Position numbers and translations under genes: made by a program
Notes under the pieces: model-generated
Told to the model about the DNA's origin: nothing
The model's database searches: none
What the model saw: the letters and a program-made list of their open reading frames with translations, nothing else
Part shown: piece after piece, positions 6,650-62,790 of the stretch
Layout: each line of letters starts with the position of its first letter
Position numbering within the stretch: position 1 is the stretch's first letter
Source: Bugulina stolonifera
Taxonomy: Eukaryota; Bryozoa; Gymnolaemata; Cheilostomatida; Bugulidae
Length of the DNA: 64,000 nucleotides
Assembly: GCA_935421135.1 (NCBI GenBank)
Contig: OW285197.1
Location: 1,801,068 to 1,865,067, forward strand
Reading direction: 5' to 3'

Positions 6650-16473
<9,824 letters not shown>

Positions 16474-25975: not shown

Positions 25976-28506
25976 CTAGCATTCTATAGGAGACGTACTC
26001 ACCCCGTCTTCCGCAACCTTCCGCTTACCGTAGAAGTAGGTGAGTCCGGTTTTTAGCTGAGTATAGCTATACGTTTGATTTCCTCTTCTGATAAAACCCC
26101 GATTGTCTCCTCTCACCGACTCCCCTGTTTTGAGCACGGAGAGGAACTTCTCTTTGGTTAGGGCGTTTCCTCTTTTATTTAGTCTTTTGCTGCTATACTT
26201 GCTATCGTCGTCAGCGGACCAACAAAAGTATGTTTTTGAGTTGAGCGCGATGACCCCCTCCCCCCGAAACTCCTCCTTAAACAGGCCAGGGGTTCGTGTT
26301 TCGTATCGCTGCACCTTCTCACAACATTCCCTCATCTCCCACTCTTGCCCGAGCACCTTGGTTGTGATAAAGTCTCCCTTGTGGCTATTGCAGAAGGGTC
26401 TGGGAAACCATTTACCATACTCTCTGTAGAACTCTTCTTTTTTATCTTTTCGGATGACCTCATCTATACTGCGAGCACTCAGGGCCATGTAAGCGCTATC
26501 CGTATCCATTTCTACGTACTCAATGTCCTCTCTGCTGACGAATCTGTGAAAATAAATCGGGCGGGTTGGAGGTTGCTGACACCGAAGAATAAATAGAAAA
26601 GGATTTGATAAAATCTTTGTATAGCCTAGTTCTACTCACCTATCCATAAAGTCGTAGTAGAACTCTAGCATCCTCAACTTGGCTCTCTGGAGGATGACGA
26701 ATCCTACGACGGATGGAACATCCATTCGAATCTAAAAGAAAGAGAGAGAGAGAGAGAGAAAGTTCACTCTTCCACTCGGAAAAAGTTTTGTTAAATCAAG
26801 AGTCAAAGTAAGAAAGATTGTCAGCACTTACCTTTTTCTTGTGAAGCTCTATCTCACAGTAGTTTTCATCGACTTCGTTGAGACTAGAAAAGTGCCTACT
26901 CCTCACATTGACGGCCGCCCCTCTACCGTCTCTACATACTTGACAGTCTTATGTTTTTCCTTATTTGTTATGGTCTTTCCGTAGGCTGAGTTTCCAACGA
27001 GCTTGCTGGTGCTGGCCAAGAGGGCCAGATCGGGGTCCAGATCTCCCCATCTCCTTGCGTCTGAGACCGAAGAACCAAAGTCTTTGAAGACGGCTCGTGG
27101 GATAAAGTGAACAAACTGATAGACCCTGGTAATTATCAAACCTTGATCTAGATACCATCTAGCCAGATCGGTGAGTAGTGTGATTCGCTCGCCAAAAAGA
27201 CTCCCCACGAGCATTCGCTGAGGTCTCTTCAAGAATCCGTTCTGTTTGGCAAAAGCGCGCATGTGTTCGCTAAGGTGTTCTCTTCCCACATTTACATTCT
27301 TGAAAATAGGTGCCATCTCAGAGAACTTCGCTTTTAGCTCTTCGGGTACGGAAATGTTGTTGATTATTTTATCAAGGTTGACGCAACCCCTCTCTGGATA
27401 GAGAGAAGAAAAGAAGACAGAGAGAAATGTCCTAACCTCTTCATCCGAACGAACTCGTGCTCCCCACTCACACTCCCGAGTGGTGATGAGCTTATAGCCT
27501 AGAGCCTTGATGTAATCTTCTTTCCTCGCAGTGTCCACCCGGAGCTCTTCATTCGTCATGTTTCTGACACCTTTTCCATTCCCTCCCAGCTCGCACTCGT
27601 GTCCGTGCCAGTAGCAACTGTGGAATTGGTACACAGTCCGGCTCTGTTCGCTATAACCATCCACCGGTAGGTTGTGACAGCCTATCCTCATTTCTCCTCC
27701 ATTCTGTTGGTGAAGGATGACCTCTCCACTCTTCCACGATTGGAACTCTAACCATCCATGCGCCACTTTGCTGAACTTTCTAACGGGTTCCAGGGCAAAG
27801 CCTCGGCTCTCTAGCCTCAGCCTGGGATAACCCGTAGGCATATTCTCCATCATGCAGTATAGGTAGAGAGCGTTGGCATCGACTCCCAGAATGGACCTAC
27901 AAGGTTTTGCGGATGTGCCATAAATCTTCTCTCGAATAGAGGTCACTCCAACTTCATGATGTGTGTGAAAGATGATGCTTGGCCCTCCCACGAGGTTATC
28001 GCGAAGAGTGTGGTACAGACTTTTGCTCTCCTCATCGAAAAGACATATGGGTTGTGAGTTGCAAAGTTCGCCTCGGAGAGACATTAACCTATGCAGCGGG
28101 AGAGCGGCTTGCGGAGGAGAGTAGCCATAAGGTCGGGCCTCCACCTCCATAAACAACCATCTGATAGCCAAGCCTGGAAGCGAGATTGCGGATTTCAACA
28201 TATCAATACCCTTTTGTCGATAGATAGAGCTCTGACGTGCAATGGCCTCGATGAATGGGGCCACATCGAGGTTGTTGTACCAGATGAGAAAATCCCTGAA
28301 CGTTTCCATGTTCTCTCTTTCCCACACGACCTGGCAGTGGTGATAATCTTGCTCGCTCAATTCTTGCTGAGTCAGCGAGTTGAAAAAACTCTCTCGGGGA
28401 GGGAGTCCATGATGATCCAACCTTCTCAGGGAATCTACCCAGTCGTAAGGAAAGAATCCCTACTCTCTGACACGCCAAATGCCTTCAGGTATTTGGAGTA
28501 GTTGAA
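25976..28506 (-). pseudogene. polB: DNA polymerase B 3' fragment in the inverted left arm
   Basis: The minus-strand frames 28420-26903, a short exon near 26735-26640 and 26509-25976 correspond segment by segment to the right-arm polymerase. Palm motif A (VDANALYLY), motif B (LVGNSAYGKT) and motif C (MDTDS) are present, ending VAEDGVSTSPIEC. The copy is broken in three ways. It starts inside the gene at 28506. It lacks 13 codons present in the right arm, a deletion between short ACATT repeats near 27357. One G is missing in a G-run near 26921, shifting the frame before the first intron. It is therefore non-functional on its own. Confidence 0.88.
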
Positions 28507-28851
28507 CACTACTACAATAGTACATTATCAATGGATACTGACAACATAGTCCAGAACCAAGAAGAGTTATTTGCGGGCTTAACGGACTCACAAATGGATG
28601 GAATTATTGAAGAAGAAGAGTGCAGTCAGAAGAGGAAAGAAGAGGTGGATGCGTTAAAAGAGGCACGGAAGAAGGGGAAAATAATAGGAGTGGGGAGTGT
28701 TGCCCGAAAGGATCTTTCTAACATGGCAGACTCTCCGTCCTCCCCGGAGCGGGCCTCGGTTAGGGGCGAGACCACAACATCCAAGAAGAGGAAGAGCCCA
28801 AAAGGAGATGAAATCTGTGCTAGGAAAAAGAAGAAACCCCAGGTGATTGTA
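28507..28851 (+). CDS. captured exon-like segment encoding a Lys-rich peptide
   Basis: This 345-bp segment is not shared by the two arms. An ATG at 28531 opens a frame reading MDTDNIVQNQEELFAG, then an acidic/basic helical stretch (EEEECSQKRKEEVDALKEARKKGK). It ends in nuclear-localisation-like KKRKSPKG and ARKKKKPQ before CAG|GTGATT, a plausible donor at 28841/28842. The frame otherwise runs artificially into the internal terminus at 28852. It looks like the first exon of a nuclear protein gene, either from an earlier Polinton relative or a host gene. I do not recognise it. Confidence 0.45.
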
Positions 28852-29128
28852 AGTAGTATAGTCAGTGCAGATCTGCACAGACACCCGGCCATTTCTGCGT
28901 CTTATTAGCCCTAGATCCAAAAATACCCCGGGCGGACGACCACCCCACCCGTCCTCTCGCCCCCTCCCCTTCCCTAAACCTCACTCTATGTGCAAAGCCC
29001 TAGAATCTACCCCCCGATCGCGGGTGGGGTTTCAAAAACCTCATCGGCTGTTCCGTAGAACTCAGTCTAAAGAGCAAACCCCGCGCCCCGTCCCACGGCT
29101 CGGGCGAGGGGGCGCGCGCGTACGCGTA
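28852..29128 (+). repeat. internal relic of a Polinton left terminus
   Basis: AGTAGTATAGTCAGTGCAG and about 270 bp that follow match the outer left terminus (24629 onward), including CACCCGGCCATTT and the CTATGTGCAAAGCCCTAGAA block. The 6 bp before it are ATTGTA, unlike the CTTATA flanks of the composite. This end was therefore inside the DNA that last transposed. Confidence 0.88.
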
Positions 29129-29330
29129 CGGGGTGCATCGGGTTACATCGGGTTACATCGGGATGCATCGGGAGGCTTCGGATTCACATCGGGGTGCATC
29201 GTGAGGCTTCGGATTCACATCGGGGTGCATCGGGAGGCTTCGGATTCACATCGGGGTGCATCGGGAGGCTTCGGATTCACATCGGGGTGCATCGGGAGGC
29301 TTCGGATTCACATCGGGATGCATCGGGGTA
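29129..29330. repeat. 31-bp minisatellite with GGGTTACATC decamers
   Basis: Two GGGTTACATC decamers lead into about five 31-bp units with the core GCATCGGGAGGCTTCGGATT. Unit length and CGATG core echo the 10/31-bp array of the cargo element at 56101-57345. The array sits directly upstream of the polymerase gene promoter. Confidence 0.85.
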
Positions 29331-29369
29331 GTATTGCCAAGGGTGGGGAAATGGTTAGACTCCGCCCAC

Positions 29370-29820
29370 TGAATACTACTATTTAAGGTATGAGTTTCTC
29401 ACTCTAGCAGTATGAACAGTCAGCCTCTAGTCAACAGAGTGAGAGTAAACAGAGACAGCTACCTACTAGTCAGCGCCTGATCAGAGATGTCAACAAGTAC
29501 AACATAAGGTTAGTGCTAAATAGGGTAATCGGCAGCAATTGTGAAGTGTTTATTGTATATAACGCTATTGAGCCAAAAACAAAAAAAATTAACTTACACC
29601 CTACTACTATATATTTTTATAGGGAGACTAAACAGAGACAACTACCTTCTAGCCAGCGCATGATCAGCAGAGATGTCAACAAGTGAAAAAGGTTAGTGCT
29701 AAATGAGGTAGTTGGTAGCAATTGTGGATTGTTTACTGTTTATGTAGTGTGAAGTAAAAGAATAATAACTTACACCCTGCCATTTTTTTTTTATAGGGGG
29801 AGAGACCTCTCGTCGGGTCG
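29370..29820 (+). promoter_or_regulatory. TATA-like promoter and duplicated 5' leader exons of the polymerase gene
   Basis: TCCGCCCACT (GC-box-like) and TATTTAAGG (29379-29388) precede a leader with CAACAGAGTGAGAG. The leader exon ends AACATAAG|GTTAGTGC. A second, homologous exon-intron unit follows (about 29620-29800): GAGACTAAACAGAGACAACTACC ... GTCAACAAGTGAAAAAG|GTTAGTGC. The leader exon and its donor are thus tandemly duplicated. A further TTTTTTATAG acceptor lies at about 29797. Confidence 0.5.
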
Positions 29821-30073
29821 AGCACACCTGTCAACTATGAGGTCTGGTTCTCAGAACAGCGTTTTCTCTAGACAGGCACACAAAGAGAATGCATGCACAG
29901 GCTCACCCGCACAAGTGACCAGTTTGTGGCGGATGTTTTTATGGGAGGAGAAAGCTAGGTCATCACATGAGGCGATTTCATAGCGAGGGTAAGGTGGAAA
30001 AAGATGAGGGAGGTGCAGAGAAGTTTGATGATTTTTCTGGTCTAAACCGCCAACAGCTGAAGAGGGGGATGAG

Positions 30074-33000
30074 ATGGGGGTGCTACTAGCCCGCTATTGG
30101 AGCTCCATCAGGTCCGCAATACACTCTCGTCCCGTAGAAGATATTCTCAACGTTCGAGTGTGGAGAGGGGAAGGTGAAGACGAAGGAGATGAAGAGGTGT
30201 GGACTAAGTTGAGAGCAATGTGGAAGAGAGTGCCTTGTACTGTGAAGATTAACTGTAGCGCTGGAGTCATCCTCGAGCATAAGACCAGTGGAGAGTTGCG
30301 CATTCTTCCCCAAACCAAGACTGATCAGAACAGAGAATGAGATGAGAGAGTTTTGCGAATCTGTGCAGGAGCTCGACTTGAGAGAGAGGTCAGCACAAAG
30401 GAGACCGAAAACCGCTTGGGCTTTACGACACATTGCGAATCTGACATTCTACATCTATAAACTCCTAGAGATTGGTAAGGTGGGCGGTGTAGTGAGCAAA
30501 CTCCCAGACTACATACTTAACAACCGATACGTGATAGCACTAGACGTAGACTTTTGGGCTAGAGGAGGTGCGCGTCCCTACTCAGACAACTTGTGTTTCT
30601 TTAGATGTCTGGCCATGATGTATGACTGTAACTGCGACCAGAAGAAGGGATGTTGCTGTCGTCACCCCTCTCACGCCACAACACATCGCTCGTTTAATCA
30701 ATACATGAGACGTTCTAAATCTTCTTCCCCACCCTCATCAACTTTGTCAGACTTTCCCGGGGTGGACGCGAGTGATCTACTGGCCTTGGAAGATCATTTT
30801 GACATATCTATAATAGTCTTCCGCCTAACTGATGAGGGGGTAGCTCCGATAGTCTGGCCGTCTGGGGCACAAAACAAAGCCCATAAACTCTTCGTCAACA
30901 TGTACGAAAAACACTTCAGCTGGATAAAGAATGTTGATTCGTTTGCCAGATGTTTCACCTGCAAGCTGTGCGATAGCGCGTTTACACGCTTGTCCAGCCT
31001 ATGACGACACAAGTGCTCGCCAGAAGAGGCATCGGTGTTCGTTTTCCCCGGTGGAACGTTTGGACCCCCGCCAACCATATTCACAAAACTCAAGCGAGTG
31101 GCGGGAATAGAGGTGGTGAACCCCGACCTCTTATACTACCCCTACTATATCACCTATGATATCGAATGCTTCATGCCAAAAGACAACCTACCAACTAACA
31201 CCACCACGATGACTTTTAGTGCAAGACACGAGCTACTGAGCATATCCGCGTGTTCTAACGTCCCGGGGTTTGAGCGGGCCAAGTGTTTTGTGAGGAGCGT
31301 CGACAGCAAGGATGGGACGAAGTGCATTCGTCAATTCGTCCAATACATAGCAAAGATTGCTGACGTGGCAGGAGATTTGTTCGGAGAAAGATTCCAGGAT
31401 GTACGCGAGCGACTCTCTACCTTCCTCGCGGATCGGGCAGATAGAGAAGAGGCCTTTGCTGACGACAAGTTCTCTAACGTCTCGACTTACAGGGTGAAGT
31501 CCGGTCTCTCCGGATTAGAAAGAGAGTTAGAACAGCACATCTCCAGCGTTCCGGTGGTCGGCTTCAACTCGCAAAAGTATGACCTAAATATACTAAAGGG
31601 ACCTTTACTTCGCTCTCTACAAGAGGAGGAGGGAGAAGATTTTGTTTTCATCGTTAAGCGTGTTAACAGTATGTCCTGCGTGGAGAGTAGACATTTTAGA
31701 TTCCTTGACATATGCAACTTTATCGCACCAGGCTTCAACTACTCCAAATACTTGAAGGCATTTGGCGTGTCAGAGAGTAAGGGATTCTTTCCTTACGACT
31801 GGGTAGATTCCCGGAGAAGGTTGGATCATCATGGACTCCCTCCCCGAGAGAGTTTTTTCAACTCGCTGACTCAGCAAGAATTGAGCGAGCAAGATTATCA
31901 CCACCGCCAGCTCGTGTGGGAAAGAGAGAACATGGAAACGTTCAGGGATTTCCTCATCTGGTACAACAACCTCGATGTGGCCCCATTCATCGAGGCCATT
32001 GCACGTCAGAGCTCTATCTATCGACAAAAGGGTATTGATATGTTGAAATCCGCAATCTCGCTTCCAGGCTTGGCTATCAGATGGTTGTTTTTGGAGGTGG
32101 AGGCCCGACCTTATGGCTACTCTCCTCCGCAAGCCGCTCTCCCGCTGCATAGGTTAATGTCTCTCCGAGGCGAACTTTGCAACTCACAACCCATATGTCT
32201 GTTCGATGAGGAGAGCAAAAGTCTGTACCACACTCTTCGCGATAACCTCGTGGGAGGGCCAAGCATCATCTTTCACACACATCATGAAGTTGGAGTGACC
32301 TCTATTCGAGAGAAGATTTATGGCACATCCGCAAAACCTTGTAGGTCCATTCTGGGAGTCGATGCCAACGCTCTCTACCTATACTGCATGATGGAGAATA
32401 TGCCTACGGGTTATCCCAGGCTGAGGCTAGAGAGCCGAGCCTTTGCTCTGGAACCCGTTAGAAAGTTCAGCAATGTGGCGCATGGATGGTTAGAGTTCCA
32501 ATCGTGGAAGAGTGGAGAGGTCATCCTTCACCAACAGAATGGAGGACAAATGAGGATAGGCTGTCACAACCTACCGGTGGATGGTTATAGCGAACAGAGC
32601 CGGACTGTGTACCAATTCCGCGGTTGCTACTGGCACGGACACGGGTGCGAGCTGGGAGGGAATGGAAAAGGTGTCAGAAACATGACGAATGAAGAGCTCC
32701 GAGTGGACACTGGGAGGAAAGACGATTACATTAAGGCTCTAGGTTATAAGCTCATCACCACTCGGGAGTGTGAGTGGGGAGCACGAGTTCGTTCGGATGA
32801 AGAGGTTAGGACATTTCTCTCTGTCTTCTTTTCTTCTCTCTATCCAGAGAGGGGTTGCGTCAACCTCGATAAAATAACCAACGACATTCGTAGTGGAGAG
32901 TACTATGGTTTAGTGGAGTGTGACATTTCCGTACCCGAAGAGCTAAAAGCGAAGTTCTCTGAGATGGCACCTATTTTCAAGAATATAAATGTGGGAAGAG

Positions 33001-34305
33001 AACACCTTAGCGAACACATGCGCGCTTTTGCCAAACAGAACGGATTCTTGAAGAGACCTCAGCGAATGCTCGTGGGGAGTCTTTTTGGCGAGCGAATCAC
33101 ACTACTCACCGATCTGGCTAGATGGTATCTAGATCAAGGTTTGATAATTACCAGGGTCTATCAGTTCGTTCACTTTATCCCACGAGCCGTCTTCAAAGAC
33201 TTTGGTTCTTCGGTCTCAGACGCAAGGAGAGGGGGAGATCTGGACCCCGATCTGGCCCTCTTGGCCAGCACCAGCAAGCTCGTTGGGAACTCAGCCTACG
33301 GAAAGACCATAACAAATAAGGAAAAACATAAGACTGTCAAGTATGTAGAGACGGTAGAGGGGGCGGCCGTCAAAGTGAGGAGTAGGCACTTTTCTAGTCT
33401 CAACGAAGTCGATGAAAACTACTATGAGATAGAGCTTCACAAGAAAAAGGTAAGTGTTGACAATCTTTCTTACTTTGACTCTTGATTTAACAAAACTTTT
33501 TCCGAGTGGAAGAGTGAACTTTCTCTCTCTCTCTCTCTCTTTCTTTTAGATTCGAATGGATGTTCCATCCGTCGTAGGATTCGTCATCCTCCAGAGAGCC
33601 AAGTTGAGGATGCTAGAGTTCTACTACGACTTTATGGATAGGTGAGTAGAACTAGGCTATACAAAGATTTTATCAAATCCTTTTCTATTTATTCTTCGGT
33701 GTCAGCAACCTCCAACCCGCCCGATTTATTTTCACAGATTCGTCAGCAGAGAGGACTTTGAGTACGTAGAAATGGATACGGATAGCGCTTACATGGCCCT
33801 GAGTGCTCGCAGTATAGATGAGGTCATCCGAAAAGATAAAAAAGAAGAGTTCTACAGAGAATATGGTAAATGGTTTCCCAGACCCTTCTGCGATAGCCAC
33901 AAGGGAGACTTTATCACAACCAAGGTGCTCGGGCAAGAGTGGGAGATGAGGGAATGTTGTGAGAAGGTGCAGCGATACGAAACACGAACCCCTGGCCTGT
34001 TTAAGGAGGAGTTTCGGGGGGAGGGGGTCATCGCGCTCAACTCAAAAACATACTTTTGTTGGTCCGCTGACGGCGATAGCAAGTATAGCAGCAAAGGACT
34101 AAATAAAAGAGGAAACACCCTAACCAAAGAGAAGTTCCTCTCCGTGCTCAAAACAGGGGAGTCGGTGAGAGGAGACAATCGGGGTTTTATCAGAAGAGGA
34201 AATCAAACGTGTAGCTATACTCAGCTAAAAACCGGACTCACCTACTTCTACGGTAAGCGGAAGGTTGCGGAAGACGGGGTGAGTACGACTCCTATAGAAT
34301 GCTAG
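30074..34305 (+). pseudogene. polB: protein-primed DNA polymerase B of the Polinton-like element
   Basis: The gene is read in pieces: 30074-30340, 30288-31004, 31035-33449, 33550-33641 and 33738-34305. The N-terminal part has a D-x-x-C-F-F-R segment (near 30588) and a downstream H (near 30912), resembling the OTU-like region of Polinton polymerases, then a C2H2-type finger starting CKLCDSAF. Exonuclease motifs YDIEC (about 31155) and NSQKYDLNIL (about 31568) follow. The polymerase motifs are VDANALYLY, LVGNSAYGKT and MDTDS, and the natural-looking end is GKRKVAEDGVSTTPIEC. The two introns match those in the left arm. Breaks are a frame change around 30300-30340 and a TGA at 31001-31003 inside the zinc finger, where CGA (Arg) is expected. 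Replication function is therefore lost in this copy unless supplied in trans. Confidence 0.9.
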
Positions 34306-34873
34306 TACTGATTTCTTGGAGATGAGACTACTTCATTCGATAAATCAGAGAGTAAACGAACAGTGCATCATAACCCTTGTATATATAATATATATCCGTA
34401 TAATTCTTTTCACATTCACTCTCTATTGTAAGGGGTCTCCGTCCTCGAAAAGGAGGGTTTACTGGTTGTAGCCTTAAAACCGAGCAATAAAACACTAGCT
34501 AATACATTAAAAACCATTTACCTCTCCAAACCAAAGGGGTAGACGGTACTAGCGCAGCTTCCGCTCATACTCACCCCTTATCAGTTCACATTTCTTCTAT
34601 TGTCTTCATTCGTAGGTGGGGGGTAACATCGCACGCGCACGATGCGCTCTCTCCCTATCGGAGTTTGCTACCCGGGGGAAAGTAGACGCGGTGGTCAAAG
34701 AAATTGGTGGTGAGTCAACGACATCATCGTAGAAGCGGGTCTATTTGTAGGATGATGATGATGATGATGATGATGACGATGACGATGAGAAGACAAGCAT
34801 CCGTCTATCCCGTTTATCTATTTCTATTTCTACCCCTCCGAGCGATGATGTCGTCGGCTAACATCCTCGCGAA

Positions 34874-35112
34874 GTGTACGGTTTGAAGCGCGGAAGAGCC
34901 ATCGCCTATACTTTCCCTCGCCGCTCGTCATGGGGACGGGTGATTTCCCTAGGGGAGGGGCCGGGGGAAATGAGGGTTAAGGCGCGAGTCTTTCATCAAA
35001 GGTCCGGGGGCGCTCGAACAGAGGAGCGCGCGAGTGCGGTGTCACCCCGACCAGTTCAGTCTCAGCAGTACCCGGCGAAGAAACCATCCGGAAGCACCAC
35101 CACCACTCGGTA
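34874..35112 (+). CDS. small basic exon-like frame conserved between arms
   Basis: The frame ends ...SAVSPRPVQSQQYPAKKPSGSTTTTR at a canonical GTAAGT donor (35111 onward). The inverted left arm (about 25210-25300) encodes the same tail with Tyr-to-Ser and Pro-to-Ser changes and the same donor. Immediately beyond the donor, at 35123, a terminal-type motif begins, so the downstream exon is missing. It may be the start of a lost Polinton gene. The N-terminal part is not conserved between arms, so the start is unsure. Confidence 0.3.
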
Positions 35113-35117
35113 AGTTT

Positions 35118-35703
35118 CTTATAGTAGTATAGTCAGCGTCGTAAACTCTGCACGGGCACTCCGCACGGGCATAGCCTATCATTACTCTAACCCGTATTTT
35201 CCTTCGCTTCACCCTACTCCAGCCGACGGTCCGCCCGCGAGGGCCGCGACGGGTCGTTGGGGCGGGAGGGCGGGGGACGGGCGGGGGACCGGCGGGGGAG
35301 GGCGGCGTGGGGCCACGGCTGGACTCGCAAACGAGAACCGCCGCGAGGCGGAGGGGAGGGGTGGGGTGGGGAGGGGCGGGGACGGGTGGAGGGAGGACGG
35401 GTGGGGTTCGCGGGGCGGGGGGGGGGGGGCGCGCGTACGCCCGAGCCGTGGGACGGGACGGGGCGCGGGGTTTGCTCTTTAGACTGGGTTCTACGGAACA
35501 GCCGATAAGGTTTTTGAAACCCCACTCGCGATCGGGGGGTAGGTTCTAGGGCTTTGCACATAGAGTGAGGTTTAGGGAAGGGGAGGGGGCGAGAGGACGG
35601 GTGGAGTGGTCGTCCGCCCGGGGAGTTTTTGGATCTAGGGCTAATAAGACGCGGAAATGGCCGGGTGTCTGTGCAGATCTGCACTGACTATACTACTCTT
35701 ATA
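35118..35703. mobile_element. MITE-like terminal module nested in the right arm
   Basis: GTAGTATAGTCAGCG begins at 35124 and faces the inverted outer end CTGACTATACTACT at 35697. Both sides carry CTTATA (35118-35123 and 35698-35703). The left arm has the mirror arrangement (CTGACTGTACTAC then TATAAG near 25193-25210). Each arm therefore terminates in a ~575-bp unit with its own inverted ends, either a nested miniature relative or a duplicated terminus. The G/C-rich tract lies inside it. Confidence 0.5.
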
Positions 35704-49547: not shown

Positions 49548-51267
49548 TTATTTGGGCTTCCGGTTTCTTGTGGATCGTCTGGGGTTAGAACGTGTGTATG
49601 CACTTGGGTCTGGCATCCTGGGATTCCGGTATTTGATCTTCGGTGGTGTTGGTGATGTATTGTGTTCAGGTTCTGTACTTCTCTGCTTATTAGTGTTGCT
49701 TGTAGGAGATTCAGGTATATGTATATCTTCTGGTGGTTCACCATCCTCTGCACTGACATGTCGAAGCTGTAACTGATCTATGTGCCTTTTCCAGACTGGT
49801 CCTCTTGGCATAATCTTGACCATTACCGATCTGCTTCCCAGAACTTTGGTGACCACTGCCTCTATCCATTTAGGTTGCCTGTTTCGTCTAGGTCCACAAT
49901 ATAGCGCATAGCAGGGGGTTCCCACATTATAGCAATGTAACTTTTTAGTCCTCTGGACGTCTTGCATTTGTTTTCCTTGAGCCAAATGAGCCGGAGAAGG
50001 TAACAGCACATCTATCTTTGTCCTGATCTGTCGTCCATTCAGTAGCTCACTAGGAGAGAATCTATAGGATAGCGGTGTTCGTCTATATTGCATTAGAAAC
50101 TCCTGAAGAGCTTGGTTGGTGGAAAGAGTAGACTTCTTTAGAGACTGTTTAAATGATCCCACCATTCGTTCAGCTGCTCCATTAGTGGCTGGATGGTAAG
50201 GTGCTCCTCGTAGGTGGATGATTCCCCTCTCCTTACACCACTGCTGAAACTCGTCTGAGGTGAAGCTTGTTCCATTATCTGTGACTATGGTATGAGGGTA
50301 ACCAAAGTGAGCAAAATCTTTTTCCAGTAGGTCTGTAGTTGCTTTGGTAGAGATAAAACTGGTTGGATGTATACAAGGATACTTTGTGTAAGCATCTACT
50401 AGGACCAGCCAATTGGTCCCCATGAAGTTGATTGCGTGGTCGATGTGTAGTCTGCTCCACGGCTTTTCTGGCATCATCCAAGGGTGAATTGGTGCCTTAG
50501 TTGGTTGGTTCTGATGTTCCCTGCAGGTGGTGCATTTCTGAGTCATCTCCATAATGTCCTTGTCCATACGAGGCCAGTATACTGCAGTGCGAGCCAGTTG
50601 CTTCATTCTCTGCATGCCAAAATGTCCCATATGTATCAGTTGTAACACTTCCTTTTGGAGAGATAGGGGAATTACCACTCTGCTTCCATATAGTAAACAT
50701 CCATTTTCAATTGATAGTGATGCAGTTAACTTCTGGAAATCCTTGATGCTGTAGCCTTCCAAGTTTACTTCACTCTGATATGGATTCCGCTCTTCATCTT
50801 GCCAGCCTTCCCTGGTATATCTCATAATTTTGCTTAGTACTGGATCTTTAGCCGTTTCTTTCTTCAGCACTCCAGGTTCTGTTGGAGAGAGCTGTGTGCC
50901 GATAGCTTTGATACAGCAAACAGTGTCTATATCTTCTCCTTCTTCTTCTGCATCAAACTTAGCATCAGGGCCACTAGGTAGTCTGCTGAGTACATCTGCA
51001 TTTCCATGTTCTGAGGTTTTCCTGTATTCAATGGAGTACTGGTACTGGTTTAGTGTAAGTGCCCATCTGGCGAGTCTGTTGGCCGCCATAGCCGGTGTTG
51101 CTTTGTTGGGGCCAAACAGAGTAAGTAGAGATCGATGATCCGTTATGAGTATGAACTTCCTCCCATATAAGAACTGATGGAACTTGGTGATGCCAAAGAT
51201 AATAGCTAGTGCTTCCTTCTGGGTTTGGCTGTATCCTCGTTGAGTCTGTGTCAGTGTCTTGCTTGCA
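49548..51267 (-). pseudogene. pol: Ty3/Gypsy-like pol 3' part (copy B): RNase H to integrase
   Basis: From 51267 downward the frame reads SKTLTQTQRGYSQTQKEALA, then TDHRSLLTLF (RNase H/connection). The integrase HHCC region follows (HMGHFGMQ ... CTTCREH), then a D,D-E core (HIDHAINF, TDNGT, GAAERM) and a C-terminal GPF-like module (PVWKRHIDQLQLRH). The C-terminus is basic and Pro/Arg-rich. The frame is open to its natural stop at 49548. Upstream, residues before SKTL come from the inserted Polinton-like terminus and are not part of pol. The remainder of copy B continues at 60155 beyond the 8.9-kb insertion. Confidence 0.88.
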
Positions 51268-52508
51268 AGTAGTATAGTCAGTGCACTTCTAGACAGACAC
51301 GCACTCATTGACCCCTGTTTTCAACCAATCACAAGCCGGTATTTCCGATTTCAACCAATCACAGAAGAGCACAAAAATTTTGCACACGACCTTGCCAAGG
51401 TCACCCCAAAATCCCCCTTCTGATTGGTCGAAAAAACATTTGCACACTTGACCCCGAACCCGGCCACGACCCCTTCCCTCCCTCCTTCCCGCCCTCCTCC
51501 CCTCCCCCTCCCCCACCTCCCACTCCTCCCCCACTCCCTGCCACCGCCCTCGTCCCGTCCGCACCACCGCCACCGCCGCCACCACCGCCCTCACCACCGC
51601 CACCGCCGCCGCCACCACCGCCGCCACCACCGCCCTCACCACCGCCGCCGCCACCGCCGCCGCCACCGCCGCCACCGCCACCACCGCCACCGCCGCCACC
51701 GCCACCACCGCCGCCGCCACCACCGCCGCCGCCATCACCGTCATCACCGCCACTCCTCCTCCACCGCTGCCCACCCTCCCCCCCCGCAACCCCCACTCAC
51801 CCGAACGACCGATCGTTTGAGGCGGTCAAGCCGCGTCCGCCCACGTTGCGTGCGGCGCCGACCGTACACGTGGAGGCGACGCCGGTGCCCCGTATCCACC
51901 GGACCAAGCGACTAGGCAGCGGCCCGTCGCTTCTCCTGCGCCCTCCACTCGAAAAGCTTGTGATCTAAGCGAGCGAATTCGGCTGCGCTTCGCCTATAGC
52001 TCTCATTAGCGATAAGAAGAAGTACTACGGAAGGCTTGGTTTCAGCGATAAGAAGAAGTACTACGGAAGGCTTGGTTTATGATGTGCATTGCATTGTTAA
52101 TAAAGAAATGTGTAAAGTCTTGGCTATAAATATACTGATGGGAAGAAGGGTTGTTTCTATGATATACATTGTATTGACAACAAAGAACCGTGTGCATGTG
52201 TTAAGTCAGCATATATAATGCATTAAATAAACTTTTCGCAATGGTGACAATAGAATGAATAAAAGATTGTGTACATGTGTTAAAACACAATTGAAAGAAT
52301 AAAAGACACATATTTAAAAGAGTATGTCATATCTGTTATTAGCAAGGAAGTCTGTGTGCATGTGTTAAGACAGTGTATATTATACATTATATAAGCTTTT
52401 CACAATAGTAGCAATAGAATAAATAAAAGGTTGTGTGCATGTGTTAAGTCAGCATTATGTAATATATTAAATAAACTTTTCACAATAGTAGCAATAGAAT
52501 AAATAAAA
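51268..52508 (+). repeat. left terminal inverted repeat
   Basis: It is the inverse of 58967-60154. In order it holds the AGTAGTATAG terminus, three CCAATCA/TGATTGG motifs within the first 160 bp, a C-rich CCG/CCA triplet tract (about 51480-51790), and a unique segment ending near AGCTTGTGATCTAAGCGAGCG. The first copies of an AT-rich ~80-150-bp tandem repeat with AATAAACTTTTCACAATAGTAGC follow. The two TIRs differ mainly in triplet-tract length. Confidence 0.9.
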
Positions 52509-52930
52509 GATTGAGTGTATGTGTTAAGTCAGCATTATGTAATACATTAAATACACTTTTTACAACACTAGCAATAGAATGAATAAAAAAGCTACATATG
52601 TAAAGGAGTATGTCATAGCTATTGTTAGCAAGAAAAGTCTGTGTACATGTGTTAAGGGCAGCATATATAATACATTAAATAAACTTTTCACAATAGTAGC
52701 AATAGAATAAATAAAGATTGTGTACACATGTTGAAATATCATTATAATATGATTTAAACACAATTGAAAGAATCAAAGACACATATGTAAAGGAGTATGT
52801 CATAGCTATTATAGCAAGAGACAGCTGTGTGCATGTGTTAAGTCAGCACATATAATACATTAAATGAACTTTTTACAATAGTAGCAATAGAATGTATAAA
52901 AGGATGTGTATAAGTGTTAGAATACCATTA
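52345..52930. repeat. AT-rich tandem repeat at the inner edge of the left TIR
   Basis: Units contain GTGTGCATGTGTTAAGTCAGCA, TATTAAATAAACTTTTCACAATAGTAGC and AATAGAATAAATAAA. They recur about seven times on the left from 52200 onward and about three times on the right (58967-59260). Confidence 0.8.
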
Positions 52931-53074
52931 TACAATAATTTAAAAAAATAATTTAAAAAAATCCTCACTGATTTGCTATCACATAAAAGTAAATGCAGAG
53001 GGAATGAGACACTACAGAGAGAGAGAGTGGGAGAAAGAGAGTGGGAGAAAAAAGAAAAAAAAAAAAAAAGATTA

Positions 53075-55933
53075 TTAGAGCTTTTCTTCACTGACTCGAA
53101 GGTAAGCTTCAGCTTGTGCTATTACCTCTCTGTGATACCCATTCTTCTTGAGATGAAAAATGGCAGAGCGGTAATACTCAACTGCTCCAGAGAAAAAAGA
53201 TGGGGGGAGTCTGCTTCGATCAACTAGTTCACTGACAGTCTCCTCTTCTATGGGGGTAATAGTGGTGGGGGTATTAAGATTGAGTTCAGACGAACAAGAA
53301 GGAGATTGCGAGCTAAGTAGCTCTCTTCCAAAAGAAAGAGAGGGTGAAGCTAAAGAAAAGGAAGAAGTGGTAGTAGTAGAAGTAGTAATAAAAGTAGGTA
53401 TTGAAAGACTAGTAATTGTATTATTAGATCTTCCAAGAGAAAAAGAGGGTGAATCTAAGAAAAAGAGTGGAGCAGGTGAAGAGGTGGGAGTAGAAGTAGG
53501 TATCGAAACAGTGGTAACTGTATCATCAGATCTTTCAGGAGAATGAGAGGGTGAATGTGAAGAAAAGAGTGGGGGAAAAGAAGCAGTAGAAGGAGTGGTA
53601 GTAATGGTAGTAGTAATAGTAGTAGTTGTAAGAGAAGAAGTAGAGGTGGTAATGTCTCCATTAGTAAGAGAGTTACTGATGGAAGAAGCATCTGAATCAA
53701 AATGATGGTGAGAAGGGAGAGGAAATTGTGAAGAGCACACCCCAGACTTTACAGATCTTTCAGGAGAATGAGAGGGTGAATGTGAAGAAAAGAGTGGAGG
53801 AAAAGAAGTAGTAGAAGGAGTAGTAGTAATAGTAGTAGTTGTAAGAGAAGAAGTAGAGATGGTAATGTCTCCATTAGTAAGAGAGTTACTGATGGAAGAA
53901 GCATCTGAATCAAAATGATGGTGAGAAGGGAGAGGAAATTGTGAAGAGCACACCCCAGACTTTAAAGAGAATGGAGTAGTAGACATCCCCTTAAAGAAGG
54001 GAGGGTATACTACAAAAAAAGGATATGGTCTTTTTTAATGAATAGATATCAGTTAGAAAGCGTGTGTTGAATGAGATGTGTCGGTGACAGGGCTTTCCAT
54101 CAATATGATGATTAGATGGAAAGTTGTAGTGTCTATTCATCCCCTCATCATCTACTGTTATGTGATAGCAAAAACAGATTCGGAGCAAAAAATGTTGTTG
54201 AATGTGGACACCTCGTCGGTGCCCAACATTCTTATTGCATAAAAAGCAGGGGTCGTCCGATTCAAATGGCTTTGTTAGTGACATCTCCAGTCTTCTTTTT
54301 GTCTCATCACTAACAAAGACATAGAATCTTAGACCCCCCCTTACATATCGGCTTTGCTCTGAGTCCTAAAAAAGAAAAAAAATAACAAGAATAAGTGAGA
54401 GAGAACATATGACTTACTTGTAAATCAGAAAAAAAAAAAAAAAGATTCTAAATATACAAATAGATACTAGATCATTCTTACCTATCTCGAACCCATCTAC
54501 TCCCCCACATTCTTCAAATAATGCAATTTCTTCTTCCCCTAGTTCTGTTTCTTTTTCATTCTATAATGTAAATAAAATGTGCAGAGACTAATTAACAAAC
54601 TACATTAACATAGTTATTTGTAATATATGGTTTTTGAAGAATTTGATGAAAAAACTAGCACTCTAAGTACTAAGCAAGTCTACTAAAGCCTGTCTATTTA
54701 CTCACATAAAGAGAAATACATCATTAACATAAGAAAACCAGTTGTAATTTATGTTATATTTTTTCACATAAGAAAAGAAAAAAAAAGTGTCTTATTGATG
54801 AAAATAATACATAAGAAAGAAAGTGCAATACTTATAATAAAAATATCACTAATCTTTAACATCTTAGACATGGTAAGAGACTTATAGAATTAGAGAAAAT
54901 CATACTATGGCTAATTAACATCTGGTTTTAAAAAGGAAGTAGTCTCTTTTGACATTCTAGACATGGTAAGAGGCTTATAGTATAAAAAAGTACATCATCA
55001 TTATGTGTAACTAACATGTACTTCTGAAGAAATGTCAGTAATCTCCTTTGACATCTTAGAAACCCAACACCATAGTGGATTGAAGGTGTAATGCATGTGT
55101 GAACAAATAAGATAATAGACTAACCATTTCTGGAGATGGGATTCTTTTCCTCGAGATTCGTCTTCTGTCTTCCGAATCATACGTAATCATATACTTCATT
55201 CCTTTTTTTGATGTTTTAATTTTTCTTATATATTTCTTTCTTTGATATTTAGATGTAGAAGCCTGTAAGTATATGTAGAGTAATAAACATATACCAAAGC
55301 ATGAGTCAAGTAGATGGAACTACTAATGCAACATAGCTACTAAAGAAAGAAACACTACAGTGGTATAACCACTTATAATAAAGTTTCTAAGCTCTGGTCA
55401 CACTGATTGTAGTATAGACAGAGCAGATCTCTACACACATGCTCTCATGTTGAGAATCAAAACAGTTTAATATATAAGCTTACAACGTTTTTAAGCCCCG
55501 GACATACCAAAGGAGAATTATACCACTACTAAAATATAATTAGCCCCAATGTTAACTCAAATGAGTAAGTTCATATTAGAATACATATTAAAATAGCTAG
55601 GATGTACTAGTATAGCCAGTACAAGTGGTAATAAACTGTTTTGATACTTATTACACTACTAGTGGTATAACTACTCATATTGAAAATAAATCTCACCACA
55701 TATAAAGCTTCTAAGCTCCGGTCACACAAATTGTAGTATAGACAGATCAGATCTCTACATACTTGCTCTCATGTTGAGAATCAAAACAGTTTAATACATA
55801 AGCTTACAAAGTTTCTAAGCTCTGGTCATACCAAGGGAGTATTATATCATTACTAAAATAGAATTAGTCCCAACGTTAACTCAAATGAGTAAATTCATAC
55901 TAAAATACATATTAAAATAAGTTTACTCACCAT
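53075..55933 (-). CDS. cargo gene 2: unknown, probably nuclear, Ser/Thr-rich protein
   Basis: The predicted exons are 55931-55933 (ATG only), 55125-55262, 54482-54560, 54089-54358 and 53075-54009, totalling 474 residues. The joints are in frame, but the 54089 donor (GTCACC) and the 54358 acceptor are weak, so the middle is less sure. Residues 2-47 are very basic (KYQRKKYIRKIKTSKKG, RRRISRKR), like a nuclear or DNA-binding segment. A conserved-looking core follows (RYVRGGLRFYVFVSDET), with CFLCNKNVGHRRGVH, a possible Cys2His2 zinc site. A long Ser/Thr-rich stretch contains two near-identical ~80-residue repeats (SSQFPLPSHHHFDSDASS). The C-terminus is helical (AVEYYRSAIFHLKKNGYHREV) and could be a TPR-like hairpin. 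I recognise no family. It is transcribed away from the IkappaB-like gene and reads toward the left TIR. Confidence 0.55.
55381..55925. repeat. two ~220-bp direct repeats with terminus-like motifs inside intron 1 of cargo gene 2
   Basis: Copies at 55381-55603 and 55705-55925 share AA(G)CTCTGGTCACAC, GTTGAGAATCAAAACAGTTTAAT and CAAATGAGTAA. Each holds GTAGTATAGACAG(A/T)(G/T)CAGATCTCTACA (55409 and 55733). This resembles the terminus GTAGTATAGTCAGTGCAGATCTGCAC of the polymerase-bearing composite more than this element's own end. Confidence 0.7.
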
Positions 55934-56100
55934 ATTAATTGTTGAGTGATGTTTATTCAGAGAAATTAGTAAATATCCACAGAGTTGCAAGTCTTTACTA
56001 GGTGGTTGAGTGGTAATGATAAAAATCCTCTCTCACTCTTGCTTTTATGGAAATCTCTGTCCAATCAGAAGTGATTTGCCTTTTTTTAGTCTGATTTATT

Positions 56101-57345
56101 GCATCCTGATGTGATTCGATGTAACCCGATGTAACCCGATGTAACCCGATGTAACCCGATGTAACCCGATGTAACCCGATGTAACCCGATGTAACCCGAT
56201 GTAACCCGATGTAACCCGATGTAACCCGATGTAACCCGATGTGTTTCCGACCTCCCCCGATGTGTTTTCGACCTCCCCCGATGTGATTCGATGTGTTTTC
56301 GACCTCCCCCGATGTGATTCGATGTGTTTTCGACCTCCCCCGATGTGATTCGATGTGTTTTCGACCTCCCCCGATGTGATTCGATGTGTTTTCGACCTCC
56401 CCCGATGTGATTCGATGTGTTTTCGACCTCCCCCGATGTGATTCGATGTGTTTCCGCCCTCCCCCGATGTGATTTGATGTGTCCCGATGTGTTTTCGACC
56501 TCCCCCGATGTGCTTTCGACCTCCCCCGATGTGTTTTCGACCTCCCCCGATGTGATCGATGCGTTTTCGACCTCCCCCGATGTGATTCGATGTGTTTTCG
56601 ACCTCCCCCGATGTGATTCGATGTGACCCGATGTGTTTTCGACCTCCCCCGATGTGATTTGATGTGTCCCGATGTGTTTTCGACCTCCCCCGATGTGTTT
56701 TCGACCTCCCCCGATGTGATTCGATGTGTTTTCGACCTCCCCCGATGTGATTCGATGTGTTTTCGACCTCCCCCGATGTGATTCGATGTGTTTTCGGCCT
56801 CCCCCGATGTGATTCGATGTGTTTTCGACCTCCCCCGATGTGTCCCGATGTGTTTTCGACCTCCCCCGATGTGATTCGATGTGTCCCGATGTGTTTTCGA
56901 CCTCCCCCGATGTGATTCGATGTGTCCCGATGTGTTTTCGACCTCCCCCGATGTGTTTTCGACCTCCCCCGATGTGATTCGATGTGTTTTTGACCTCCCC
57001 CGATGTGTTTTCGACCTCCCCCGATGTGATTCGATGTGTTTTCGACTTCCCCCGATGTGATTCGATGTGTTTTCGACCTCCCCCGATGTGATTCGATGTG
57101 ACCCGATATGTTTTCGACCTCCCCCGATGTGATTCGATGTGTCCCCGATGTGTTTTCGACCTCCCCCGATGTGATTCGATGTGTCCCGATGTGTTTTCGA
57201 CCTCCCCCGATGTGATTTGATGTGTCCCGATGTGTTTTCGACCTCCCCCGATGTGTTTTCGACCTTTCCCGATGTGTTTCGATGTTTCCCTATGTGTTTT
57301 CGATCTTCCCCGATGTGATTCGATGCACTCTGATGTGTTTCCAAT
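56101..57345. repeat. 10-bp and 31-bp tandem array between the two cargo genes
   Basis: Twelve exact GTAACCCGAT decamers (56121-56240) are followed by about 35 units built from CGATGTGATTCGATGTG and TTTTCGACCTCCCC (31-bp full unit, with 20-bp and 10-bp partial variants) to 57345. Both strands of several frames are open for over 400 codons, but the peptides are pure repeats (HIGGGRKHI, SHRGRSKTH), so no protein is called. The array lies exactly between the divergent start sites. A related 31-bp array precedes the polymerase promoter at 29129. Confidence 0.93.
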
Positions 57346-57364
57346 GCGCTCCAATGTATATGCT

Positions 57365-57495
57365 GTTAGCCAATCAGCTTTATTTGTATCTTTTTATTCA
57401 CTATATAAAGAGAGGTGGAAACAGTAGTTTAGTTAACTCTTTCTAGCTCCAGTCTGTTCTTAATAGAAATTAAAGAAGGTTAGCACACAAATAGC
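57365..57495 (+). promoter_or_regulatory. core promoter of the IkappaB-like cargo gene
   Basis: A CCAAT box (AGCCAATCAG, 57368-57377) lies 33 bp before TATATAAAG (57402-57410). The ATG is about 85 bp downstream, with TTTAGTTAACTCTTTCTAGC as the likely start region. The spacing is that of a conventional RNA polymerase II promoter immediately abutting the tandem array. Confidence 0.65.
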
Positions 57496-58936
57496 ATGGA
57501 AAGTGGATATGGATCAAGCGAGTATAGCAACAAGCTAATGACTCCTATAAACCAAGAGCTGATGAAGGTAACAGTGGAAAGATGTACAGAACAAAGCAAG
57601 TATGAGAATAAAGACTTATTTGAGGGGGTGTCTGAGCTCTTTCTCCAAAAAAGCTTACCTCTAGACTGGCAGAAATGGGATCCTTTAACCGATGTTCGTA
57701 ATAAGCTTAGCACACAGTTACTAGAAGAAATTCGTTCTATCTTTTGGGAGCAAGATGGAAAGGATGAAGAGTTGTAAGTTATACATACTTCCAACTATTT
57801 TTTTTTGTTTCGTATTGTCTTTTATGATCAAAATAAAATATGATAGACAAATTTCCCATATAACTACCTCTCAACTATGTGAAAAACAAATATCATGCTA
57901 AATGATGTAGTGAGGTACTAGAAGCAGCCCGAGATAGAGATGAGAGAGCCGTTGCACTCGCGGTATTTGTTGCGAGGAGTCACAAACAACTGAATACAAA
58001 GAATGCGAATCGGCAGACGTTACTTCACCTAACTGTACAGTCTTATTGTTCGGATTCACTAATTCGCCTCATCATCACAAGGGGAGCAGATGGAGCAATA
58101 GCCGATGCTTGGGGTTAGTGTTTTATAGCACCAATGTTTGCATGCATTGCTTGTTAAAAAATAAAGTGTTGCAAAACTTGTAACAATTCGGTACTTATCT
58201 ATATTGCTAATGTTTATTTGGAAGGTGACACCCCCCTTCACATTGCTGCACGTCTGGGTAGAGCTAAGGTTATTCATGCTCTAACCACAAGTTTGACCAG
58301 AGCAGAAGTAAAGCATCCATACTTCAGAGTTCCTTACAAATCACTTCCCCAAGACAATGTACAGAGCTACAATCATGATGGAAGGAGTGTAGTCCACCTC
58401 ATTGTTGAAACAGCGCATAGCAGCAAGCATAGAGAGGCACTAAAGGTACTAAAAAAAAATACTCGGGCTGACTTTGATATGAGGGTAAGTGAATACATTA
58501 CAGTGGAATAAAAGTAGAGTAGATCGAATTGATAAGTTAGATGGGGAGTTTAATTCTATTCTCTTGTTTGATATTATAGCGAATGGGAGATGGATACGCC
58601 CCATCTCACATTGCCATAGAGAATGAAGACTACGAATGTCTACATACATGTCTAAGATTGGGAGCTGATTCTGAAGTTCGTAACTACAAAAGTGAAACCC
58701 CTCAACAACTAGCTCACCTCTACAAATCAGCAGATATGGTAAGGGACCAACAACATAAAGAAGTATAGATTTCTTGCTTTGTCCACCTTGAGTGATATTC
58801 GTCTGAGTAAAATACTAAAATCATCTTGTAGGTAAGACTGTGTCAAGAGTTTGGAGCTGGAGCATATCAATTAGAGTATGCTGAGACCGAAGTCGTAAAC
58901 ATTATAGCTCCTACGACTTCTGATGAAGATGAGTAA
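57496..58936 (+). CDS. cargo gene 1: IkappaB-like ankyrin-repeat protein
   Basis: Five exons join in frame to 334 residues: 57496-57773, 57911-58113, 58225-58484, 58580-58738 and 58832-58936. All have GT-AG joints and matching phases. The ankyrin repeats follow the IkappaB order: NANRQTLLHLTV; IADAWGDTPLHIAARLGR; then a ~30-residue insertion before NHDGRSVVHL; then GDGYAPSHIAIENED; and a last half-repeat SETPQQLAHLY. The N-x2-Q-T-x-L-H-L signature and the long loop between the third and fourth repeats are characteristic of IkappaB proteins. The tail is acidic (TSDEDE). The N-terminus holds ESGYGSS (residues 2-8), close to the DSGxxS phosphodegron recognised by beta-TrCP. The known family role is to mask NF-kappaB. 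Acting as a decoy inhibitor here is inference, and capture of a host IkappaB gene by the element is an equally valid description. No frame damage is seen. Confidence 0.8.
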
Positions 58937-58966
58937 TAAGTACCTAAACTCCTCTTTTATTTATTC

Positions 58967-60154
58967 TATTGCTACTATTGTGAAAAGTTTATTTAATATA
59001 TTACATAATGCTGACTTAACACATGCACACAACCTTTTATTTATTCTATTGCTACTATTGTGAAAAGTTTATCTAATGTATAATATACACTGTCTTAACA
59101 CATGCACACAGACTTTCTTGCTAATAATAGATATGACATACTCTTTTAAATATGTGTCTTTTATTCTTTCAATTGTGTTTTAACACGTGTACACAATCTT
59201 TCATTCATTCTATTGTCACCATTGTGGAAAGTTTATTTAATGTATTATATATGCTGACTTAACACATGCACACGTTTCTTTATTGTCAATACAATGTATA
59301 TCATAGAACCAACCCTTCTTCCCATCAGTGTATTTATAGCCAAGACTTTACACATTTCTTTATTAACAATGCAATGCACATCATAAACCAAGCCTTCCGT
59401 AGTACTTCTTCTTATCGCTAATGAGAGCTATAGGCGAAGCGCAGCCGAATTCGCTCGCTTAGATCACAAGCTTTTCGAGTGGAGGGCGCAGGAGAAGTGG
59501 CGGGCCGCTGCCTAGTCGCTTGGCCCGGTGGATACGGGGCACCGGCGTCGCCTCCACGTGTACGGTCGGCGCCGCACGCAACGTGGGCAGACGCGGCTTG
59601 ACCGCCTCAAACGATCGGTCGTTCGGGTGAGTGGGGGTTGCGGGGGGGGAGGGTGGGCGGCGGTGGAGGAGGAGTGGCGGTGATGACGGTGATGGCGGCG
59701 GCGGTGGTGGCGGCGGCGGTGGTGGTGGTGGCGGTGGCGGTGGCGGCGGTGGCGGTGGTGGTGGTGGCGGTGGCGGCGGTGGCGGCGGCGGTGGTGAGGG
59801 CGGTGGTGGCGGCGGCGGTGGCGGTGGTGAGGGCGGTGGTGGCGGCGGTGGCGGTGGTGCGGACGGGACGAGGGCGGTGGCAGGGAGTGGGGGAGGAGTG
59901 GGAGGTGGGGGAGGGGGAGGGGAGGAGGGCGGGAAGGAGGGAGGGAAGGGGTCGTGGCCGGGTTCGGGGTCAAGTGTGCAAATGTTTTTTCGACCAATCA
60001 GAAGGGGGGATTTTGGGGTGACCTTGGCAAGGTCGTGTGCAAAATTTTTGTGCTCTTCTGTGATTGGTTGAAATCGGAAATACCGGCTTGTGATTGGTTG
60101 AAAACAGGGGTCAATGAGTGCGTGTCTGTCTAGAAGTGCACTGACTATACTACT
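58967..60154 (-). repeat. right terminal inverted repeat
   Basis: It is the inverse of the left TIR. The gene-proximal part is the AT-rich repeat, followed by a G-rich GGC/GGT triplet tract (about 59620-59960), TGATTGG motifs and the terminus CTATACTACT at 60154. It starts just 31 bp after the IkappaB-like stop codon and may supply polyadenylation signals. Confidence 0.9.
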
Positions 60155-60700
60155 CTTGCATGGGCAATTGGTCGTTCAGATCCATCTCCGTATCGATGGA
60201 ATAGCACTACCCCGAGTCTCACTGCTGATGCATCACAGGATATGCCTAACTTTAATGATGGGTCAAAATGTGGCAGGATAAGGTCACTGCATAACATATG
60301 CTTGAGTTGAGAAAATGCTGCTTGTTGAATTGGTGTCCATTGCCATTTCTCTCCCTTTCTTAATAACTTCTGAAGAGGTGCTGTGACTGTTGATAGATCT
60401 GGTAGAAGGTTGAGATTAGGTATTTTGCTGATTACAAAATGAAGGGGTTTCTCTTGCTGACCTCCTACTTTGGTGTTGAGTGTACACGTTCCTATAATCT
60501 CTATCGGGTGATGGGTAGCTGACTCCTAGTGAATCAGTGGTGGTTGCAGTGTAGGTGCTCCTAGTCTTCTCCAATTGTGTTCTGATAGAAAGTTGTCTCC
60601 CGCTCCTGTGTCCACTTCTAGTTGCAGTGGTTGTCCTTGAAGAATTAATTCTACTTGAATTTGTGGAACAGCACGTACTGTTTTTAGAGCCCTCACAATA
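60155..60700 (-). pseudogene. pol: Ty3/Gypsy-like pol 5' fragments (copy B): protease fused to RT tail
   Basis: On the minus strand a protease piece (LEVDTGAGDNFLSEHNW, about 60640-60590) is followed, after a stop and about 100 nt, by the end of an RT (LLPDLSTVTAPLQKLLRKG, about 60415-60360) and the start of RNase H (ISCDASAV, GSERPIAHA) up to the Polinton insertion at 60155. Most of RT, including the catalytic YxDD box, is deleted. Together with 49548-51267 this forms one dead element. Its upstream edge (about 60700) is fused directly to copy A. Confidence 0.82.
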
Positions 60701-62784: not shown

Positions 62785-62790
62785 ATCTAG

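Follow-up and report, generated by a model that had tools for sequence, protein, structure and literature searches.

The subject of this analysis is an 8,887 bp insertion, at positions 51268-60154, in a 64,000 bp stretch of DNA from the cheilostome bryozoan Bugulina stolonifera (the window, i.e. the whole stretch that was analysed, located at C11:1801068-1865067 of the 235 Mb assembly that was searched; C numbers denote chromosome-scale contigs and L numbers element loci extracted from the same assembly). The insertion carries a gene for an IκB-like protein and a divergent partner gene between Polinton-type ends. An earlier note on this DNA had described it as a Polinton-like cargo element of an 'early animal', a label that the bryozoan host does not bear out. 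What that note missed is that several classes of element share these ends, the IκB element being just one of them, with the integrase and capsid genes and the polymerase gene on separate elements, and this split system is a more surprising result than the IκB element itself. The features of the insertion and its immediate flanks are as follows.

51262..51267, no strand: left target-site duplication (TSD), CTTGCA, from flank comparison
51268..52510, + strand: left terminal inverted repeat, the same as the right repeat over its outer 150 bp
53075..54365, - strand: partner gene, exon 4 region, disrupted in the window (comparison with L011)
54482..54560, - strand: partner gene, exon 3 (splice prediction; comparison with L011)
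55125..55262, - strand: partner gene, exon 2 (splice prediction; comparison with L011)
55931..55933, - strand: partner gene, predicted exon 1, start codon only (splice prediction)
56117..57340, no strand: minisatellite between the divergent genes, with 10-, 21- and 31-bp units around CCCGATG
57496..57773, + strand: IκB/Cactus-like gene, exon 1 (this and the next four by predicted splicing)
57911..58113, + strand: IκB/Cactus-like gene, exon 2
58225..58484, + strand: IκB/Cactus-like gene, exon 3, source of the 30-mer used in the genome search
58580..58738, + strand: IκB/Cactus-like gene, exon 4
58832..58936, + strand: IκB/Cactus-like gene, exon 5, stop included
58953..60154, - strand: right terminal inverted repeat, from self-comparison of the window
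60155..60160, no strand: right TSD, CTTGCA, from flank comparison

A 6-bp TSD together with AGT...ACT ends is a hallmark of Polintons. The inverted repeats of the IκB element are 100% complementary over their outer 150 bp, with inner arms reaching to ~52510 and ~58953 at 97% or less; the ends are AGTAGTATAGTCA, of the AG...CT type, and with arms of up to ~1.2 kb they are Polinton-like. When the flanks were joined to reconstruct the empty site, one frame was open through the junction and the other two contained stops; from its residues, judged by eye, we take the interrupted frame to be the RNase H region of a Gypsy-type element. The secure boundaries, inverted repeats, perfect 6-bp TSD and restored frame reported in the earlier note were all recovered. 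Beside the insertion site, at 60416-63717 on the - strand, lie Gypsy-like gag-pol frames that appear, again by eye, to belong to a second retroelement next to the interrupted one.

The exact 29-bp terminus of the element occurs twice in the window, against 0.00 expected, and genome-wide there were 271 forward and 279 reverse occurrences, with none for a reversed-pattern control; the 100 matches listed formed 50 plus-then-minus pairs spaced 8.4-17.2 kb apart. A related terminus bounds the polymerase-bearing element found 16 kb away in the window, and occurs 120+125 times in the genome. The two types agree at 32 of their 40 outer bp, the first 18 being identical, so that the match of termini claimed previously stands for this outer stretch and fails beyond it, where the repeats differ. 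The corresponding features in the window are listed below.

24629..35697, no strand: PolB-type element with TSD CTTATA and an inverted partial duplication, with a terminus that agrees with the IκB element's at 32/40 bp
31005..33485, + strand: PolB open frame (DNA_pol_B_2, 3e-7)

This PolB-type element has a second terminus at 28852 and was inserted whole, as a single unit; it is possibly an integrated palindromic replication product.

Elements with these ends fall into four classes, of which we read directly seven of class A, three of class B besides that of the window, one single class C element (L029) and three of class D. Class A, of ~10.7 kb, contains genes for an integrase, a packaging ATPase and a double-jelly-roll capsid protein, a protease-like open reading frame (ORF) and several further ORFs. 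The integrase matched rve (2e-11) and Chromo (1.2e-6), and the ATPase Pox_A32 (1.9e-6), all above the Pfam cut-off. A model of the capsid protein (mean pLDDT 80.6) matched the capsids of PBCV-1, Sputnik and mavirus with E values of 4e-17 to 1.5e-15 and TM scores of ~0.5-0.6; its sequence retrieved 40 homologues, none named as a capsid or with a Pfam domain, and its own Pfam match was below the cut-off. The arrangement of HW, D, Q and C in the protease-like ORF is presumably a cysteine protease motif, the nearest PDB chain being S273R of African swine fever virus (ASFV) with an E value of 0.12, and a further ORF that we take from its motif to be penton-like had no relevant match in the PDB. Among the matches listed, class A DNA matched the PolB element of the window only outside the PolB frame. 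The searches of viral contigs returned no relatives of the major capsid protein (MCP), PolB or integrase, and phage records none for the MCP.

Class B, of ~9 kb, comprises the IκB gene and its orphan partner. The other whole elements, at L011, L023 and L024/L025 (the last with extra inserted DNA), hold both genes inside the repeats and, with the 21 end-paired IκB elements on C1 and C2 described below, provide the further copies with different TSDs that the earlier note had proposed to search for. Class C, of ~9.7 kb, encodes PolB with C2H2 zinc fingers and is represented by L029 and by the rearranged element of the window; L029 matches the PolB region of the window at 97% DNA identity and contains no integrase ORF. 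Pfam naming of its 731-aa PolB piece gave only zinc fingers and no PolB family, so its name rests on the window frame and on the 97% identity. Class D (L016, L026 and L030) consists of elements of 8.4-8.6 kb with strong inverted repeats and no large unique ORFs, stretches of which match the end parts and non-coding parts of the PolB element. L030:138-8595 is a near-perfect palindrome, with two 4,219-bp arms, a 20-bp spacer and a 6-bp TSD; the arms are 100% complementary (rounded), with three substitutions in the outer 230 bp. Such inverted-duplicate elements with proper TSDs would fit the integration of linear replication products.

The marker genes were scored by exact 30-mers from the integrase, the IκB exon and PolB, a procedure that misses divergent copies. 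Genome-wide, the integrase word occurred 191 times, the PolB word 267 times with up to two mismatches and the IκB exon 3 word 144 times, with no occurrence of any control; one PolB 30-mer proved variant-specific (four genome matches) and another was used for the counts, and co-occurrence with PolB was assessed at 100 zero-mismatch places among the 267. Pairing of ends on C1 and C2 gave 48 elements bounded by the IκB/capsid terminus and 18 bounded by the PolB type (left out were two PolB-type ends without a mate and two C3 pairs). Of these 66 elements, the integrase marker was the sole one in 24, that of IκB in 21 and that of PolB in 14; seven had none, and in no case were two markers found in one element, exact 30-mers being used and no search being made for other Polinton families. 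Thus neither the IκB elements nor the integrase elements contained the PolB marker (0/21 and 0/24), and the integrase marker, confined to class A, was likewise absent from the IκB and PolB elements (0/21 and 0/14); the view that the IκB element has Polinton-type ends and no replication genes of its own is upheld. Marker loci outside exact-end pairs on C1 and C2 were few (integrase 5/29, IκB 2/23, PolB 2/16). On C3 and C4, PolB was present in 22 of 26 pairings of the PolB terminus and the other markers in none, five unpaired ends having been dropped and one pairing, 57 kb long, being probably due to chance. Among the matches listed for C1-C5 there were 86 integrase, 56 PolB and 59 IκB loci, with only three integrase-PolB pairs within 25 kb and none within one element: for the two on C1 the markers sit in neighbouring elements with separate termini, and for the third, on C3, the integrase word falls beyond the bounds of the PolB element. 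At C1:14183858-14220827, three insertions lie close together in the order PolB, capsid/integrase, PolB.

We consider it probable that a Polinton is here divided among elements inserted separately from one another, and that the IκB element, which is non-autonomous, is its third part. Class A would supply the integrase and virion proteins, class C the B-family DNA polymerase, which is presumably protein-primed, and class B would bring a captured bryozoan IκB/Cactus gene together with an orphan gene. Because termini of one kind and 6-bp TSDs are found in all three, the class A integrase and the class C polymerase most likely act on all of them in trans, the integrase joining the ends of every class and the polymerase copying their linear forms. 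Help in trans would be the simplest account of the absence of integrase from class C and of polymerase from class A, since both classes are nevertheless abundant, with clean TSDs and like ends. The class A capsid proteins may, in addition, package all classes. Taken as a whole, the system holds PolB, integrase, packaging ATPase and double-jelly-roll capsid protein, with a cysteine protease that we assume from its motif alone, and we class it as a Polinton variant; the lone IκB element is not classed as a Polinton, because it has neither polymerase nor integrase.

The separation of the markers might instead reflect decay, with A, B and C each left over, independently, from a one-piece Polinton that has become rare or been lost, or that this haplotype does not contain. 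The accessible parts of two papers describe a Polinton as a single element, typically of 15-25 kb, that encodes both PolB and integrase (PMC6431247; PMC11071308), and classes A and C have in common a 627-bp stretch at 96% (L013:581-1206; L029:2196-2811), which takes in minisatellite sequence and the 5' portion of a small ORF. However, had the elements decayed, uneven sizes and a few full-length copies should remain, whereas the size classes are tight (18 of 24 integrase elements measure 10.5-11.2 kb and 12 of 14 PolB elements 9.6-10.0 kb), joint elements are absent among the 66, the marker words persist in 144-267 copies, and the elements examined have complete ends and distinct TSDs. We therefore judge this explanation very unlikely.

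It is also conceivable that there are two families, one formed by A and B, which have the same inverted repeats, and the other by C, each with unseen helpers, the outer 40 bp having been kept for general Polinton-end reasons. The inverted repeats of C are indeed unlike those of A and B beyond this outer stretch. On the other hand, the first 18 bp are identical; a single non-coding core of 2.2 kb, 96% identical between L016 and L030, is flanked by either type of terminus; and, besides the stretch just mentioned, A and C resemble each other in their CCCGATG minisatellites, since arrays with this core, as seen between the genes of the IκB element, are present also in one capsid element (L009:1225-1909) and in one PolB element (L029:2588-3347), which suggests that they are putative binding sites of a common regulator. 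Neither class, moreover, showed the enzyme marker of the other. Two families thus seem unlikely, and we return to the split Polinton and to its cargo.

The five exons of the IκB-like gene encode a predicted protein of 334 aa with an ankyrin-repeat domain (Pfam Ank_2, 5.8e-13, in three stretches). A search of 5.8 billion proteins found 14 relatives, headed by Cact of the bryozoan Bugula neritina, at 71% identity over 87%; next comes, at 59%, an NF-kappa-B inhibitor alpha-like protein of Watersipora subatra, and six relatives without a protein name align with these two. Over the ankyrin region the cargo and B. neritina Cact are identical at 165 of 220 aligned residues, and in a tree of nine rows the two pair with support of 84/89, which is below the strict threshold. 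PDB sequence searches returned ankyrins and DARPins, with no IκB among the 60 matches listed, a result that counts against IκB-specific homology. The alignment over the whole ankyrin domain goes beyond a generic ankyrin likeness and, on this homology, we regard the cargo as a genuine IκB (Cactus), as the earlier note had proposed. The two findings that the earlier note named as able to refute it, a lack of further copies with the gene pair and a place among generic ankyrin proteins, were thus both looked for, and each check came out in its favour. It is shorter at both ends than B. neritina Cact (334 versus 398 aa), and a motif scan detected no canonical phosphodegron, DSGxxS, in it; its start reads MESGYGS, with ESGYGS at residue 2. 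The same scan found DSGFMS at residue 51 of B. neritina Cact, ESGYES and ESGYAS in two relatives without a protein name, and no degron motif in the Watersipora relative. The viral contigs searched contained no relatives of the cargo.

The full frame was open in seven of the ten other IκB copies read; that of L011 was not open, and those of L002 and L006 were not readable as full genes by the mapping used. The eight open copies, including that of the window, differ pairwise at 0-22 of 1002 coding bases. These copies bear on another explanation, which sees in the IκB element no more than a passenger: a non-autonomous derivative would have picked up a host gene accidentally, much as Pack-MULEs pick up gene fragments, and spread via its recognized ends, its IκB protein having no role for the system. 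Non-autonomous elements with common ends are frequent, class D, with no large unique ORFs, also has perfect TSDs, and the copies are so alike that open frames alone prove little. Against this, the entire ankyrin domain is kept with its splice sites, while full-length genes are described as rare in Pack-MULEs and Helitrons in the accessible part of one paper (PMC6431247); the exon word is present in 144 copies; and the frame has been kept despite ~29% amino-acid divergence from B. neritina Cact, which suggests prolonged constraint, provided that the divergence took place within the element. We find the passenger explanation doubtful.

The partner gene is disrupted in the window, where the exons give 195 aa by only one of the acceptor choices tried; an open version, of 525 aa, is present at L011. 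The frame of exon 4 is open in L024 and reaches the same end as in L011, and that of L023 is shorter with a different end. In this respect the earlier note, which gave two spliced, divergent genes for the element, needs correction. The first 234 residues of the partner matched no Pfam family, the pieces from the window copy giving only matches below the cut-off; residues 1-215 had no homologue among 249 candidates from the protein collection; the best E value against the PDB was 0.67; and the AlphaFold model (pLDDT 31) was unusable. By the Pfam, PDB and protein-collection searches, then, the predicted partner is an orphan gene.

The 6-bp TSDs were perfect, and different, in all 16 elements sampled from the four classes (seven A, four B, two C and three D, including both window elements). 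No substitution separated the two ends over the outer 230 bp in 12 of these 16; over 700 bp there were 1 to 166 substitutions, many of them in poorly aligning, G+C-rich simple repeats. The near-identical outer ends and the closely similar IκB copies together speak for insertions that are mostly recent.

How the cargo might serve a split Polinton can be outlined as follows. IκB proteins keep Rel dimers in the cytoplasm. On this basis we propose that an IκB gene captured from the host lineage would hold host NF-κB (Rel) inactive during replication of the elements and so damp the host response; immune modulation by the cargo is thus what we infer. The B. stolonifera genome has Rel-domain matches at C8:10,899.6-10,902.4 kb; a weak search of ~10 kb beside them found no ankyrin repeats and is not used as evidence. 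Only tentatively, and as something short of probable, do we extend the proposal to a segmented, integrating bryozoan Polinton virus with capsid/integrase, polymerase and immune-brake segments, which would replicate in trans and insert independently, the host-derived IκB silencing NF-κB and in this way permitting expression of the other segments.

Several points weigh against the split Polinton. The system is known here from integrated genomic copies alone, and those directly read comprise seven elements of class A and only one single element of class C. The PolB class has only about the outer 40 bp in common with A and B, so recognition of all ends by a single integrase can only be presumed. 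Exact 30-mers and the zero-mismatch PolB list may miss PolB copies that have diverged, as well as a one-piece Polinton if it is rare or divergent. Many copies may be defective, because disruptions were seen in PolB of L029 and in IκB of L011 as well as in the partner gene of the window. Finally, the dN/dS ratio of ~0.45 comes from comparisons with L025 only and from few changes (dN 0.014-0.018, dS 0.031-0.038, introns 0.029-0.038); pairs of IκB copies without L025 had too few changes for the ratio to be calculated.

The bryozoan system resembles the Polinton/Maverick elements (Polintoviricetes; animal adintoviruses) in its 6-bp TSDs, AGT...ACT ends and long inverted repeats and, taken as a whole, in its rve-Chromo integrase, packaging ATPase, double-jelly-roll capsid protein and PolB; it differs in that this gene set is spread over separate elements and is joined by an extra IκB class. 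Polintons are called self-synthesizing since polymerase and integrase travel together, and a split family, spread over hundreds of copies, would depart from that. The Bidnaviridae, described in the accessible parts of two papers as segmented viruses with a Polinton-type PolB and, in some species, up to twelve segments (PMC11071296; PMC4061559), likewise have their genes divided over separate units, but they are parvovirus-like, with a superfamily 3 helicase and a single-jelly-roll capsid, whereas the bryozoan system has double-jelly-roll capsid genes, an integrase and integrated copies. In a segmented virus the essential genes lie on separate molecules with common ends, and the integrated copies, the one form in which the system is known, fit that pattern. 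Among the titles and abstract openings searched, which took in few subscription journals, no segmented, bipartite or multipartite Polinton was described and no paper combined bryozoa and Polinton. If the proposal is true, it shows a route by which an integrating DNA virus becomes multipartite.

With regard to the cargo, the vankyrins of polydnaviruses are IκB homologues without sequences for regulated degradation, according to the accessible part of one paper (PMC3757122). The bryozoan gene, too, is an IκB homologue on virus-derived DNA and resembles them in its want of a canonical degron. Vankyrins, however, are products of parasitoid wasps that are delivered to another animal and serve the wasp against it, whereas the present copies amplify in their own, bryozoan, genome and encode a protein 71% identical to a bryozoan Cactus. 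As in gene capture by Pack-MULEs and Helitrons, a host gene lies between transposon ends; unlike there, the gene is spliced, its domain is intact, the copies number more than 100 and the ends are of Polinton type. Viral ankyrin-repeat proteins, several of which act on NF-κB, include A238L of ASFV and those of poxviruses, and the likeness to these, by description only, lies in the ankyrin repeats. The system, if confirmed, would offer a natural example of mobile DNA that bears the brake on the immune switch of its host, and it is testable now, since an assembly, the alternate haplotype GCA_935421085.1 and the RNA-seq data ERR10123683 exist for B. stolonifera, as stated in the accessible part of the source (PMC10213821).

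Elsewhere in the window, retroelement-like frames are present at 10855-15217 on the + strand, in which residues like those of zinc knuckles, a reverse transcriptase and an integrase can be discerned by eye. Two closely similar cysteine-containing ORFs, at 36881-37246 and 46301-46681, both on the - strand, lie ~9.4 kb apart and are, we assume from their resemblance, perhaps exons of duplicated PAN/Apple-like genes.

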